Both the position numbers and the translations under genes were made by a program. The notes beneath the pieces are model-generated. The model made no database searches and was not told the origin of the DNA. It saw only the letters and a list, made by a program, of their open reading frames with translations. From Paraniabella defluvii (GTDB taxonomy: Bacteria; Bacteroidota; Bacteroidia; Chitinophagales; Chitinophagaceae): a stretch of DNA of 64,000 nt. Location: contig CP079215.1 of NCBI GenBank assembly GCA_019316985.1, positions 1,798,001-1,862,000 on the forward strand, written 5' to 3'. Positions 51,473 to 58,557 of the stretch are shown in pieces; the first letter of the stretch is position 1, and each line of letters begins with the position of its first letter.

Positions 51473-51476
51473 TTAT

Positions 51477-52747
51477 CTACACCACCACCAGTTCATAAAA
51501 ATCTTCGGGCAATAAATATTTATTGGCAGTTTCCTGTAATTCGGCGGCGGTAATATTTTTAATATTAGAAATATAGCGGTTGAAAAAATCATTATCCAGG
51601 TCGTTGAGAATAATGTTTTCCAGCGGGCAATCATTTGGAACGGCCCATCAAGATCTCCCAAAATAGAACCCATCATAAAGTTCTTTACCAGCATCAGCTC
51701 TTCTTCATCTACAGCCTCGTTGCGAAGGATTTCCATTTCTTTATACACCTCGCTAATGGTAGCTTCACTCACATCACGCCCTGCTTCGGTGGTGATCATC
51801 CATCCGTTTTCTCGTTTGTTACCCATCAGGTAGCTATGTATACCATACGTATATCCTTTTTCCTCCCGGATATTCGCCATCAGGCGACTACCAAAAATCC
51901 GCCCAGCACCACGTTCAATACCTGCGCTTTTAAAAAATCGGGATGATGCCTGTTTTCAAACGGTCTTGCCAACCGGATAGAGCCCTGTACCCCATTCTCA
52001 TCATTGATCACGCGATGCTTTTTTGCAGGGCCGGTGCGGCCACGTGTTGTTTTTCGGCTATTGCATTGTTATCAAAGTCTCCAAAATAAGTATCTAATAA
52101 AGATGCTATATTGCTGGGTAGCTTACCTGCTATAAAGATCTTAAACCGGCCTTTCTTATAATACTGCTGATAAAAATTAACCAGGTCTTCCCTGGTTAAG
52201 GCATCAAAATCTTCATGCCGGCTGAATTGTCCGTAAGGATGCTGTTCTCCAAAAAGATAGGTATCAATCAGCCGCCCGGCTACAAAGCTGCTTTTCTTAA
52301 GATTTACATCCAGTTTTTGCTTCATATTCTGGATGGCAATATCCATTTCACTTTGCAGCAAAGTAGACTCTGAAAAAATATCCTCACTACCGGCAATAAT
52401 TTCTCAATATGCTTCGACAGGCAATGAAGCGTAACATAGGCGTACTCCGATCCGCTGTTGCGGTTCAAATAAGCGCCATAATATTCAAAATGATCATTGA
52501 TCTCAAACGCTGTTTTAGAAGTGGTACCGTTCTTCAGCAAAAAATTGGTAACACCCGCCTCCAGGTTCTTGTTTTCAAACCAGTTACCGGCGTTAAAAAC
52601 CCACTCTACCTGCAATACCTCTTCGGCCCCTGCATCTATGGCATATACTTCTACACCGTTCCGTAAAACATATTTTTTATATGGCTGTAGCTGCAGGTTG
52701 AAGTTTACCGCGTCAACAATAGCCGGCGCTATAGTTCTGTTAAGCAT
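51477..52747 (-). CDS. M16-family peptidase, non-catalytic partner (three or more frameshifts)
   Basis: About 424 residues, pitrilysin/processing-peptidase fold, soluble. N-terminal MLNRTIAPAIVDAVNFNLQL and LRNGVEVYAIDAGAEEVLQV align with the M16 start, but the place of the HxxEH zinc motif reads NFLLKNGTTSKT, so it cannot bind zinc. Later parts: LIDTYLFGEQHPYGQF, ALTREDLVNFYQQYYKKGRF and NIREEKGYTYGIHSYLMG with the Arg-Tyr pair typical of the second lobe. Breaks near 52365, 52020-51900 and 51640. It should pair with the catalytic M16 protein at 57320-58557, from which it is separated by five plus-strand genes. The ATG at 52747 is chosen over 52819. Confidence 0.85.
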
Positions 52748-53027
52748 GAAATTAAATTGAGTGGGCAAACGTACATTAAATTTTCCATCCGCAGCAGTAC
52801 CGGAAACACCCTTTTTCATCTGCAGCTCCGGCGTACTGCTGCTTTACAACACATTCGTCACATTTTTCCACCTTTTCATCACATGTGGCATATATTTCAG
52901 GCTGCAGCAATGTAATCTTGCATTATAAATAGCAAAATGAATCGGGGCCTGGTAACCCCTCACACGCGAGAATGCCGCCTGCCAACAGGAAGGCATCCGG
53001 CCAAATCAAAAAAAAAAAAATATACGG
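52748..53027. other. 280-nt divergent region with A13 tract
   Basis: Between the M16 gene (minus) and the sensor kinase (plus). Holds imperfect hairpins (GGGG..CCCC at 52944-52959; GCCTGCC..GGAAGGC near 52978) and a run of 13 A at 53008-53020, 7 nt before the kinase ATG. No clear TAnnTTTG. Confidence 0.45.
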
Positions 53028-54497
53028 ATGAAAGCAAAAGAAATATATAATAAAATTGAATTCTGGCTGGTAAGCATTCTGGCCGCTGTATTCGTATTTT
53101 CCTGCTCGTACTGAGCAAAGATGCGAATGATGGTAGTCATAGCTATTGGAGGTTTCATGAATATAATATCCGCTTTAATTTCTACAAGCATTTTTTTGTA
53201 CCCTACCTGGCACAAATTATTATCTATTATTCAGCATTTGTTTTTCTGACAAAGTATGCCAGCGAAATAAAGGACGAGTGGACCAAAACCGGCTCTGTGT
53301 TCGGTTCGTTTTTAATTGTTGCCACCCTGATTTCCATCTCCAATACTTATATAGACGGATGGAAGTTTGCACAATTTGATACCAGGGATGAAGTATACAA
53401 TGATGTATTCACCGACAGCTTTACAACCGTTGCTATTATTTATATTTTATTTATCGCCTATTATACACTTAAAGAAGTGTTGTTTGCCTTTTTAAAGACC
53501 GGAGGTTGAGCGCACAGGGCAAAAAGGCCTTTTATTTACGTTTTTGGCACTGGTTTGCTGGCTTTCAATTTTTGCAATACTAATGGCTAACGGAGCGCAT
53601 GAGGTAGCGGCTTTCTGGATGGTAGGCGTTCCTATACAGTGCTGCTTGTGTTTTTACATTTCCGTTTTTAATTCCCTGGCCGGTGAAAGAAAATATAAAA
53701 GCCGTTCTTACTGGCTGCGTATTATTCCTGGTATCTTCCTGTTAAACCTGCTGGCTGCCGGAATCGCTTATGGCATTGCCGGTAATGGTGAATATGGCGC
53801 CTACTTTGCGGTTTTCCTGGTACTGGGTTTTTTCTTTGTCATTCCGCTCAGCTGGTATATCAGCCGCAACCGCGTTGAGAAAGAGGTGTTACAAACAGCC
53901 CTTGGCTCATCGCAGGCAAACCTGAGCTTTTTACGTTCGCAGATCAACCCTCATTTTTTGTTTAATGCATTAAATACATTGTATGGTACGGCTTTACAGG
54001 AAAATGCCGACCGCACAGGAGAAGGCATTCAAAAGCTGGGCGATATGATGCGCTTTATGCTGCACGAAAATATGCAGGAAAAAATATCGCTGGCGCGCGA
54101 GGTAGAGTACCTGAATAACTATATCGATCTTCAAAAACTCCGTACAGCCACGAGCTCTAATATTATTATTCAAACCAATATTGAAGAACAGCTCAACCGC
54201 CTGGATATTTCTCCCATGTTACTTATTCCCTTTGTGGAAAACGCCTTTAAACATGGCATTAGTTTGCAGCAGCCTTCGTTCATTAATATCTCGTTACACA
54301 CCAAAGATCATGTGCTGTATTTTGATGTAAACAATAGTGTGCATTTAAAAAATGAATATGATCCTGAAAAAATGAAAAGCGGTATCGGATTGCAAAATGT
54401 AAAGCAAAGACTGGCATTGCTTTATCCTAAAAAACATGAACTGATCATCAGGGAAAGCGCAAAAGAGTTTTTCATACACCTAACTGTTCAATTATAA
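53028..54497 (+). CDS. LytS-type sensor histidine kinase (two frameshifts)
   Basis: About 489 residues, inner membrane. The N-terminal region has about six to eight hydrophobic spans in two groups (FWLVSILAAVFVF, GSFLIVATLISIS, FLALVCWLSIFAILMANG, IPGIFLLNLLAAGIAYGIAG, AVFLVLGFFFVIPLSWYISR). A short coiled segment leads to the His_kinase H-box QINPHFLFNALNTLYG and the HATPase N-box LLIPFVENAFKHGI, then GIGLQNVKQRLALLYP. No periplasmic sensor domain. Breaks near 53110 and 53505-53545. ATG at 53028. The matching LytTR regulator is at 56560, with two genes in between. Confidence 0.9.
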
Positions 54498-54506
54498 CAG
54501 CATACC

Positions 54507-56149
54507 ATGCATAAACTTGCCACCGTCGTATTTACGCTTTTGATCCGTTTACTTTTGCAAGGGCAAAGTGCAGGTAGTCAAGATCAATTAAATGACTTGA
54601 CGGTAAAACAAAAGCTCGACGATCTATTGTCTGCTTTTGCTGCCGTAAACTTATTCAATGGATCGGCATTTGTTGCACAAAATGGTCAAATCCTGCTTTC
54701 TAAGGGATACGGATTTGCAGACTACGTAACGGGAAAACGCAACACGGATAAAAGCATGTTTCGTATCTACTCAATAACAAAACCCATTACAGCAACGGTT
54801 ATTCTGAAACTCATCCAGGAAAAGAAACTATCGTTGGATGATAAATTATCTAAGTTTTATCCCGGCCTTCCCTCTGCTGACAGCATCTCTGTTAAAAATC
54901 TACTTACTCATACTTCCGGTATCTACGGCTTTAATAATGATGGTTCCATGCCTTATGACAGCGAAGAAAATATGATTGCTTTCCTTGAAAAAACGCCTTT
55001 GCAGTTCCCGGCAGGAACAGCATGGAGGTATAGCAACACAGGCTATTTTCTGCTCGGTTTTATTATACAAAAGATTACGGATATGAAATACGAAGCGGTT
55101 GTAGACAAATATATTTTTAAACCATTGCAAATGAGTTCCTCCGGGTTCAATTATGCGGCATTATCCAGTGAAAACAAAACTACGGGCTACACATTTCTCT
55201 ATAAAGACTCTGTGAGGGTTTCCGGTATTCATGACGAAAAAGAGTTATTCTCTTCCGGCGCCATGTATGCTACCACGGCCGATTTGTATAAATATCACCT
55301 GGCCATGCAAAACCATATCATTATTAATAAAGAGCTGACAGAACAGGCCTATACACCCTTTAAAAAGAACTATGGTTATGGCTGGATCGTAGATAGCTTG
55401 CCGGGAAAACGGCTAATCCATCACTCAGGAGGTGCCATGGGCTTTAGGAGTGAACTCATGCGAGTTGACAATGACAACATTTGTATTGTATTGCTCTCTA
55501 ATTGTGAAAATTCAGACCTGGAGTTTTTAAAGAAAAATATATTGGCTGTACTCTATGGCGAACCGGTTAAAGTACCGTTCACTGTGGCATTATCGGCATC
55601 AAATTTAAACAAGCTAGCAGGCGCATATAATTTTAAACCTGACTTTACAATCTATATCACTCGTGAAAATAACCGGCTAATGGCGCAACCTTCCCGTCAA
55701 AGCAAGCAGCAGATTCTTCCGGAAACAACAAATTGTTGCTATGTGCCTTCTATACAAGGGTATTTAGAATTTAAGAGCAACGCCAACAATGTTTTCGACA
55801 GTCTTGTGTTGTTTCAAAAAGGAGAGCGATTTATTGGTAAAAGAGTGAATGCAAGTTGGGGTATTACAGGAACCGTAAAAGAAAGCGGCTGGAACGGACC
55901 GGATATTGAACTTGTAGAAAACAGCAATGCGCCGGGCTTATGGTTGGCGCATAACATTCTTCTGAAAAAGGAGCTTTAAAGTTTAGGTTCAATAACGACT
56001 GGACTTTTAGCTATGGCGATAATAACGGTGATGGCTTAGCAGAAAGCGCCGGGGAAAATATAAAAGTTGAACATGGCAGGTATAATATTACACTGGATTT
56101 AAGAGATGTTGAAAATGTTCGCTATATAATTTATTTATTGGATAAATAA
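54507..56149 (+). CDS. Serine hydrolase (class C beta-lactamase fold) with C-terminal SusE-like domain (one frameshift)
   Basis: About 547 residues, exported (MHKLATVVFTLLIRLLLQGQ). The penicillin-binding-protein/class C core is complete: SITK (Ser89-Lys92), YSN (Tyr175), HHSGG (His305-Gly309). Next a DUF3471-like segment (LNKLAGAYNFKPDFTIYITR, LEFKSNANNVFDSLVLFQKG). The last 95 residues (SWGITGTVKESGWNGPDIEL, LWLAHNI, then across a break near 55965 GALKFRFNNDWTFSYGDNNG) match the beta-sandwich of SusE/SusF lipoproteins. Starts 9 nt after the kinase stop. Peptidase or esterase activity with glycan or polymer binding is inferred. Confidence 0.85.
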
Positions 56150-56257
56150 CCTCCTGCATAAGACAGAAGCGATGAACTCTCAAATAATATTACTGGTAAG
56201 CGCTGATTTTTTTACGTACAGCTATTAAATTATGATCCTTCTTAAAAAAATCTATTT

Positions 56258-56558
56258 ATGAAATATCTTTCTTTTGCCCTGTTATTGATTGCATTTAGCT
56301 GCTCTATCAATAGCGAATACACGACACAAACAGAAACAAAAACGGTAAACAATAACGGCGTTCGGTCGAGCGTAAGGGTTACCAAAAAATTACGGAAGAC
56401 AGATAGGTTACCGGTTTCCATACTGGTAGAATCAAAAAGTAGCGACGCCTCGTTTGAGGGGCTGGACAGCATTTATTATGATGCCCGGGGTAATACTACG
56501 CTTACCCGGTCATTTGAAAAAAAAAGAGGGCCGCTGGGTTTTAGTTAAAAGCCATTGA
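56258..56558 (+). CDS. Small lipoprotein (one frameshift)
   Basis: About 100 residues. Lipobox LLIAFSC near residue 15. The mature part is Thr/Asn-rich then SSVRVTKKLRKTDRLPVSIL, DGLDSIYYDARGNTTLTRSF. An extra A near 56520 shifts the last residues; restored, the C terminus is EKKEGRWVLVKSH and the stop is at 56558. No recognised domain. It sits between the serine hydrolase and the response regulator, whose ATG follows one base after this stop, so the two are tightly linked. Confidence 0.65.
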
Positions 56559-56559
56559 C

Positions 56560-57279
56560 ATGATGCGCAGGCGCCCGCTAAAACACTTAACTTTAATATT
56601 AAAAGCTTTGATCGCCATAGCCATAGACGATGAACCGATAGCCCTGGAAGTAATTAAAAGCCATGCTACCAAGGTTCCTTTTGTAGAATTAAAAGCAACC
56701 TTTACGAATGCCTTTGATGCCATTGGCTTCCTGCAAAAAAACAAAACCGACCTGCTATTCCTGGATATTAAAATGCCGGATATAAGCGGTATCGAGTTTT
56801 TCAAATCATTAACCAACCCGCCGATGGTTATTTTTACAACCGCTTACAGCGAGCACGCTGTAGAGGGCTTTGAAGTAAGCGCTGTAGACTATCTATTAAA
56901 ACCATTTTCACTATCCAGGTTCTTAAAAGCCTGTACAAAAGCCAATGATTTATTGGCGCTAAAATCGGGTACATCCCGGCAAACGGATCATATTTTTTTA
57001 AAAGATGGTTATGAACAGGTGAAAATTATGTTTGATGATATTTTATACATCGAAGCATCCGGTAACTACCTGAATATTTTTTTGAAAGACCAGCCGAAGA
57101 TCATGACGCGATCTACTATTAATGATCTTGCCATGCAACTACCGGAAAAAGATTTTACCAGGATCCATAGAAGCTATATAGTAAACAACAGGCATATAGA
57201 AAAGTATAATAAGCAGGCGGTGTTTATTGGTTTTACAGAGATCCCTATCGGTAACACCTACCAGTTTCCTGCAAAATAA
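56560..57279 (+). CDS. LytTR-family response regulator
   Basis: Intact, 239 residues. Receiver domain: IAIDDEPIALEV, phospho-acceptor Asp69 in LLFLDIKMPD, Thr in IFTTAYSEHA and Lys114 in LLKPF. C-terminal LytTR DNA-binding domain: DHIFLKDGYEQVKIMFDDIL, IEASGNYLNIFL, FTRIHRSYIVN and IPIGNTYQ. The ATG at 56560 is used; the first 15 residues look atypical and the true start may be a few codons later. Partner of the LytS-type kinase at 53028, presumed to act on the same cassette or a distant target. Confidence 0.92.
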   Translation: MMRRRPLKHLTLILKALIAIAIDDEPIALEVIKSHATKVPFVELKATFTNAFDAIGFLQKNKTDLLFLDIKMPDISGIEFFKSLTNPPMVIFTTAYSEHAVEGFEVSAVDYLLKPFSLSRFLKACTKANDLLALKSGTSRQTDHIFLKDGYEQVKIMFDDILYIEASGNYLNIFLKDQPKIMTRSTINDLAMQLPEKDFTRIHRSYIVNNRHIEKYNKQAVFIGFTEIPIGNTYQFPAK

Positions 57280-57319: not shown

Positions 57320-58557
57320 TTATTTCGCTCGGGATAAATAATATAGCGTACTGCTGTTTTCCTCTGTCAGAATTTCTTTTGCGGCTTTGTTAATGTCGGC
57401 TACACTAACTTCCTCATATTTCTGTAATTCTGTATTCATCATATTCGCATCTCCCAGTAATTCGTAAAAAGCCAGGCTGGTGGCGCGATTGAGCACACTC
57501 ATATCTTCAAAGGCCATCATGCTCTCTGTTTTGTTCTTTACCTTCTCCAGCTCTTCGTTGGTGATAAAATTTTCCCTGATATCCTGTAAAATAGCTTCTA
57601 CTGCTGCCTCCGCAGCTTTGATATCAACGCCTTTTACCAATTTACCCTCGATAGTTAACAGGCCCGGGTCAATACTGCCAAAATGGTAACACTGTATGCT
57701 TACAAACAATTGCAGTTCCTTTACCAGTTTCTGGTACAGCCTCGAAGACTCTCCCCGCCCAGAATATCTGTAAGAAGGTCCATGGCATGATATTGTTTGC
57801 TTAAACGCCCTTCTACATGCCAGGCTTTGTAAAATCCATCCAGCGGAACGTCTGCCACTACTTCCTCCTTTCTCGCCGATGTTTGCGGCTCTTCTACCGG
57901 CAGGTTGTGGCTGGTTTTTTCTCCGGCCTCTATACTGCCAAACCATTTTTCGGCCAACGCTTTTACCTGGGTGGTATCTACGTTTCCGGCAACAACCATT
58001 ACCGCATTGTTAGGACGGTAGTGTTTAAAGAAAAACTTTTTACATCCTCCAATTGTGCCTCTTCTATATGGGAGAGTTGCTTGCCAATGGTCATCCATTT
58101 ATAAGGATGGCTTTTATACGCCAACTCGCATTTTAAACCAGGCATCGCCATAAGGTTTGTCTATATAGTGCTCTTTGAATTCCTCGCAAACCACTTTTCG
58201 CTGTACTTCGAGGCTTTTTTCACTAAATGCCAGCGAAAGCATCCGGTCGCTTTCCAGCCAAAAAGCCGTCTCCAGGTTTTCAGAAGGTAACTGGATGTAA
58301 TAGTTAGTAAGATCATTTGTTGTATAAGCATTATTTTCCCCGCCGGCCATTTGCAATGGCTCATCGTATTCGGGGATATTTACCGATCCGCCAAACATCA
58401 GGTGCTCAAACAAATGGGCAAAACCCGTTTGCGCAGGGTCTTCGTCACGGGCTCCTACATCGTATAAAATGTTCATTACCGCCAGCGGTGTCGATTTATC
58501 CTGGTGTACAATCACCCTTAAGCCATTCTCTAATACAAACTTTTCAAACTGAACCAT
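57320..58557 (-). CDS. M16-family zinc peptidase, catalytic subunit (two frameshifts)
   Basis: About 413 residues, pitrilysin family. The zinc motif HLFEH lies in GFAHLFEHLMFGGSVNIPEY, and the third ligand Glu about 75 residues later in RKVVCEEFKEH (EExxEH-like). The rest shows the M16 four-lobe architecture: VKSFFFKHYRPNNAVMVVAG, then ILGGESSRLYQKLVKE (conserved Ser-Arg-Leu-Tyr), and the closing EVSVADINKAAKEILTEENS. Breaks near 58115 and 57760. ATG at 58557. It degrades peptides inside a chamber formed with the non-catalytic partner at 51477-52747. Usually such pairs are adjacent. Confidence 0.9.

Follow-up and report, generated by a model that had tools for sequence, protein, structure and literature searches.

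The set of four genes encoding a sensor kinase (K), a serine hydrolase (H), a small lipoprotein-like protein (LP), and a response regulator (R) in Paraniabella defluvii is, judged from the gene orders compared here, a local arrangement and one instance of a wider pattern, in which a conserved LytS/LytTR pair, probably autoregulated, carries exchangeable, mostly envelope-directed cargo. The four genes lie in a 64,000-nucleotide stretch of the genome (the window; CP079215.1, positions 1,798,001 to 1,862,000). Profile searches and open reading frame (ORF) translation bore out the domains named in a preliminary description (a PF06580 kinase, a PF00144 hydrolase, a small lipoprotein-like protein, and a receiver-LytTR regulator), all on the plus strand and closely spaced within positions 53028 to 57279 (Table 1). 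To our knowledge, the targets of Bacteroidota LytS/LytTR systems are mostly unassigned, and the open-access literature, searched with limited terms, apparently holds no description of a K-R cargo slot. The pattern would be a case of a signaling operon gaining accessory parts, and an operator sequence, a small candidate regulon, and the same sensor and regulator with different passengers should make the signal, the output, and the passenger role testable.

Table 1. Features of the K-H-LP-R locus in the window
Feature	Position	Strand	Description
K	53028..54497	+	LytS/BtsS-type sensor histidine kinase, membrane N terminus; PF06580 1.6e-24
H	54507..55979	+	S12-type serine hydrolase, S89xxK, Y175SN, HSG; PF00144 4.2e-61
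H tail, probable, other frame	55980..56149	+	translation KFRFNNDWTFSYGDNNGDG...; like tails of relatives
LP	56258..56548	+	small lipoprotein-like; L088 ortholog 85% identical over 91 residues
R	56608..57279	+	receiver PF00072 2e-18, LytTR DNA-binding PF04397 1e-16; start from orthologs
Predicted LytTR operator	52854..52886	+	direct repeats TTCGTCACATTT / TTCATCACATGT, period 21 bp
-7-like promoter box TAATCTTG	52913..52920	+	26 nt past operator

Three of the four cassette genes (K, H in its tail, and LP) show frame breaks. The K frame shifts twice before position 53544, and a single ORF covers only 53544 to 54497; the K ortholog in L088, the closest relative, is unbroken at 498 amino acids (aa) and is 91% identical to the window K. 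H stops in frame at 55979, relatives with an intact ORF carry a comparable tail, and tails resembling 55980 to 56149 end the hydrolases of L035, L186 to L189, L215, and L216. LP parts from its 108-aa ortholog near the C terminus, at a run of A, and would end near 56558. The most likely start of R is a TTG at 56608, since its orthologs begin there. Gaps of 9, 108, and 1 nt had been given between successive genes: the 9 nt between K and H stand, the 108 nt between H and LP hold only when the 56-residue tail (to 56149) is counted (otherwise 278 nt), and the 1 nt before R gives way to ~49 nt once R begins at 56608. The assembly is a single 6.13-Mb contig with an estimated completeness of 72%. The flanking M16 peptidase genes (51473 to 52819 and 57320 to 58557) are each split over several frames, with intact copies in L088.

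Within the genus, we compared 17 Niabella-genus genomes with 16 K-R loci, orthology of K and R being judged by similarity plus the common operator. K was found in 16 of the 17 genomes, with R beside it in 16 of 16, and the full K-H-LP-R tetrad occurred in the window genome only, the other 15 loci having no H in the slot. Five of the 16 slots were empty. The remainder held LP (L088 and L091), LP plus a TlpA-like gene (L089), a TlpA-like gene (L092, L093, L094, and L099), TlpA-like genes plus a PIN pair (L095), DUF4932 (L098), a nucleotidyltransferase pair (L090), or, in the window, H plus LP. In L088, the order is K, 21 nt, LP, and R, without H; in the window, ~1.76 kb with H replaces the 21-nt K-LP gap, and the LP leader is conserved. 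Base composition gave no sign of a recent transfer of H, as H and K are alike in GC content (0.396 versus 0.399). A mobile insertion of H was likewise rejected: the gap in the window has no mobility gene, and a look by eye revealed no duplicated target.

The K-R pair recurs throughout Bacteroidota. We collected named loci (the 80 with the most similar K among 582) and further loci from a family search, which covered the 69 family genomes, among 394, with K at an E value of ≤1e-85 and fetched loci irrespective of cargo except for order. Removing 9 duplicates and 3 loci without R (L139, L221, and L240) from 156 left 144 distinct K-R loci, of which 76 had an empty gap and 68 an occupied one; the empty count includes 11 gaps of 151 to 330 nt, one with a 65-aa ORF. 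Occupancy was 28 of 53 among usable family-search loci and 29 of 74 among usable named loci. Cargo, named by BLAST against references with one or a few members per family checked in Pfam, fell largely into five recurring families: TlpA-like thioredoxins (25 slots), DUF4407 (23), serine hydrolases (12), PF00756-like esterases (4), and LP (4). At least one of these was present in 63 of the 68 occupied slots; the other five held a nucleotidyltransferase, DUF4932, GIY-YIG (two slots), and an unassigned 95-aa lipoprotein-like gene. Every slot longer than 400 nt (65 of 65) had an assigned plus-strand ORF, and the median spacings (4 nt from K to the first cargo gene and 18 nt from the last to R) are operon-like. 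Six slots of 1.2 to 1.4 kb that had seemed free of ORFs (L181, L223, L224, L230, L231, and L250) proved to contain ORFs for DUF4407 or esterase proteins, the first start codon in each case falling within K. Two slots (L226 and L234) contain DUF4407 plus an FtsX/MacB-like permease gene, and at L181 (5323 to 5809) the peptide FQFHLVRLK is repeated in minus-strand ORFs, which may mark a CRISPR array.

This distribution bears on the proposal, made in the preliminary description, of a four-gene signaling unit in which the hydrolase or lipoprotein acts on or reports the signal. The order K-H-LP-R is not conserved, and K and R are adjacent in relatives (5 of 16 loci in the genus and 76 of 144 overall); passenger families nevertheless recur in the K-R slot, and random variation of the middle genes as the sole account was rejected on the basis of these families and a control with paralogs. 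For that control, eight Bacteroidota genomes, picked with the state of their K-R slots known beforehand, were found to encode 7 to 62 PF06580 kinases each. A co-directional LytTR regulator lay within 8 kb of 62 kinases in five Niabella genomes and 99 in the three others; 15 kinases without one were set aside. After removal of the eight K orthologs and the six outer kinases of tandem pairs, 145 of the remaining 147 co-directional pairs were adjacent, in agreement with the earlier statement that such kinases and regulators normally adjoin. The two exceptions share a single regulator in one genome (G178), with opposite-strand genes intervening.

H retains the SxxK, YxN, and HSG motifs, and its PF00144 domain, SxxK, and YxN liken it to AmpH, class C beta-lactamases, and S12 DD-peptidases. 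However, its best NCBIfam match, AmpH, reached 83.8 bits against a cut-off of 266, and class C beta-lactamase reached 80.3 against 415; because these scores fall far below every curated beta-lactamase and AmpH cut-off, we do not classify H as a resistance enzyme. Among the solved proteins closest to H in sequence are a Pbp-related beta-lactamase and D-Ala-D-Ala carboxypeptidases. The H tail had no match in Pfam, where the tails of relatives likewise showed no extra domain; by eye, the H tail is reminiscent of starch-binding SusE/SusF modules. An H-related hydrolase adjoins the K-R system in 14 other genomes, within the slot in ten genomes of five genera (L203 to L212) and following R in four genomes of three genera (L213 to L216). 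More distant serine hydrolases occupy the slot of Pontibacter indicus (L173), lie past R in three Niabella genomes (L092, L093, and L099), and sit between the operator and K in Rufibacter latericius (L150). Serine hydrolases in total were found in the slot at 12 loci, following R at 7, and ahead of K behind the operator at 1.

In a hydrolase tree, which omitted the truncated hydrolase of L214 and sampled the unlinked matches, the ten K-H-R hydrolases of other genera formed one clade (SH-aLRT, 96). The window H grouped, with support, with three K-R-H hydrolases and five unlinked ones (nine in all). These five (L035 and L186 to L189), the closest to H, are not beside K or R, and the operator was absent from the 1.5-kb flanks scanned around them. 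Elsewhere, two serine hydrolase genes are divergent to another kinase-LytTR locus (G009, L267, 2081 to 7936), and a hydrolase lies directly ahead of a different kinase-regulator pair in L105. LP was matched in 4 of the 99 genomes searched, every time inside the K-R slot, and kinship to a named family was not detected in Pfam or NCBIfam. A weak lipobox, read by eye, suggests that LP is lipidated.

Upstream of K, a word search in 129 loci with a long K ORF, the window excluded, returned TTCRTCACATTT twice with a period of 21 bp. The seed was matched (at least 16 of 24 positions) in 107 of the 129 upstream regions, versus 82 of 2,580 shuffles. On a matrix built from these 107 other loci, the window site at 52854 to 52886 scores 38.3 bits and is the sole match above 8 bits on either strand of the 64 kb; 640 kb of shuffled window peaked at 9.96 bits. 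Its second repeat departs from the strict half-site at one position. A pattern search gave one match in the window versus 0.00 expected (100 shuffles), one position of the pattern having been loosened in knowledge of this copy. Sites above 15 bits occurred in 138 of the 144 loci (66 of 68 occupied and 72 of 76 empty), most of which had served to train the matrix. In 60 stretches of 20 kb (1.2 Mb) from the same genome, none exceeded 25 bits (the best reached 20.9 and 20.7), a sample compatible with up to ~15 more strong sites in the genome. The TAATCTTG box, which we take to be the Bacteroidota -7 element, lies 25 or 26 nt past the operator in 35 of the 107 site-bearing loci; the others have no exact box. 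Between this box and the K start, the window carries ~75 additional bases (52935 to 53027), missing in L088 and L089, with a hairpin-like stretch and a 13-A run. In eight loci, a strong site lies further upstream of K, several with intervening genes, which include a TlpA-like gene (L095) and the serine hydrolase of L150. In Daejeonella (L152, 3615 to 6044), the gene for an 809-aa exported protein separates K from a strong operator (35.9 bits).

We consider it fairly probable that the locus is a LytS/LytTR operon under its own control, in which genes for envelope accessory or output functions can be exchanged. An envelope signal would activate K, and phosphorylated R would bind the 21-bp-period repeat that immediately precedes the K promoter and raise expression of its own operon. 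The K-R gap would serve as the cargo site, as would, less often, positions before K and after R; cargo would be transcribed with the pair and supply envelope proteins as output or as accessory sensor parts. The window passengers, which have the one predicted operator upstream of K in common, would be a periplasmic or secreted S12 hydrolase, of a subfamily that travels with the K-R system in other genera, and LP. H may trim or clear an envelope substrate (a DD-peptide, a D-amino-acid peptide, or an ester); an output role is more likely for H than ligand production, because K and R are retained where H is missing. LP could contact and tune K, as QseG does for QseE; the analogy is made plausible by two reports (PMC6075780 and PMC12691602), in which QseG is a kinase-activating lipoprotein whose gene lies between qseE and qseF. 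Passengers acting as output proteins would fit the data equally well as passengers that act on or report the signal. Somewhat more tentatively, the system may be a Bacteroidota-wide, self-contained sensor cassette that chiefly targets the operon encoding it, with sensor, regulator, and operator kept and the middle-slot envelope enzyme repeatedly swapped. If so, it would be a modular stress-response chassis, in which a change of passenger changes the response.

Passengers could instead have been kept for their expression level, unrelated to the signal, the K-R gap being a place in a well-expressed operon where insertions are tolerated. Cargo does turn over quickly, with 15 changes for TlpA and 22 for occupancy on a FastTree phylogeny of K plus R in which 37 of 141 branches are weak. 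Half of the loci are empty, which suggests that cargo is dispensable for the pair (76 of 144), and toxin-antitoxin-like and nuclease genes of mobile, stand-alone type sit in the slot at four loci (the nucleotidyltransferase pair of L090, the PIN pair of L095, and GIY-YIG in L111 and L117). However, only 2 of 147 other kinase-LytTR operons in the same genomes are split, five families fill nearly all occupied slots, the same hydrolase subfamily recurs, and LP appears nowhere outside the slot in 99 genomes, all of which make a merely permissive site rather unlikely. A dedicated unit of all four genes, with H producing or destroying a ligand that LP presents and K senses, would accord with the short K-H gap, the confinement of LP to the slot, and the QseE-QseG-QseF precedent of a kinase-activating lipoprotein encoded between kinase and regulator; since the tetrad occurs in one genome and most loci keep K and R without H or LP, we regard it as improbable. 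Decay of the cassette in the window strain, with K, H, and LP as pseudogenes, would account for the frame breaks (two in K, others in the H tail and LP) but is highly improbable: intact orthologs exist, both M16 neighbors are broken too, and completeness is 72% on one 6.1-Mb contig, from which we infer indel errors in the assembly.

The favored autoregulated operon resembles several described systems in part. Like QseE-QseG-QseF of Pseudomonadota, as presented in PMC6075780 and PMC12691602, it has an exported partner encoded within the operon and, at the four LP loci, a lipoprotein gene between the kinase and regulator genes. In contrast, QseF acts on sigma-54 promoters, whereas R is a receiver-LytTR protein and not a regulator of the sigma-54-dependent type, and qseG is constant between qseE and qseF, whereas the passenger here varies by lineage. 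A section heading in PMC6075780 also reads "absence of transcriptional autoregulation", while the operator before K predicts autoregulation. The pairing of a PF06580 kinase with a receiver-LytTR regulator is that of BtsS-BtsR and LytS-LytR, and the predicted direct-repeat operator of ~21-bp period is consistent with membership in the LytS/BtsS-LytTR group. The best NCBIfam model for R was BtsR, yet the score of 107 bits is below the equivalog cut-off of 246, and cargo lies between the genes here. For LytTR operons, PMC6193735 reports 9-bp repeats separated by a 12-bp spacer ahead of the operon's own promoter; the two lengths together equal the 21-bp period of our operator. The LRS systems of Streptococcus and others treated there share direct repeats of ~21-bp period before their own promoter, and positive feedback has been proposed for them (PMC6193735). 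They differ in that the regulator is paired with an inhibiting membrane protein, whereas K has PF06580 and R a receiver.

Additional operator-like sequences were observed outside the main site. In the same genome as the window, a triple operator-like repeat (L275, 4722 to 4743, minus strand; 20.7 bits) lies near an ORF resembling another PF06580 kinase and is perhaps a related operator. Minus-strand operator copies also occur directly upstream of K in L133, L228, L241, L245, L246, L251, L255, L258, L259, and other loci, possibly for divergent control.
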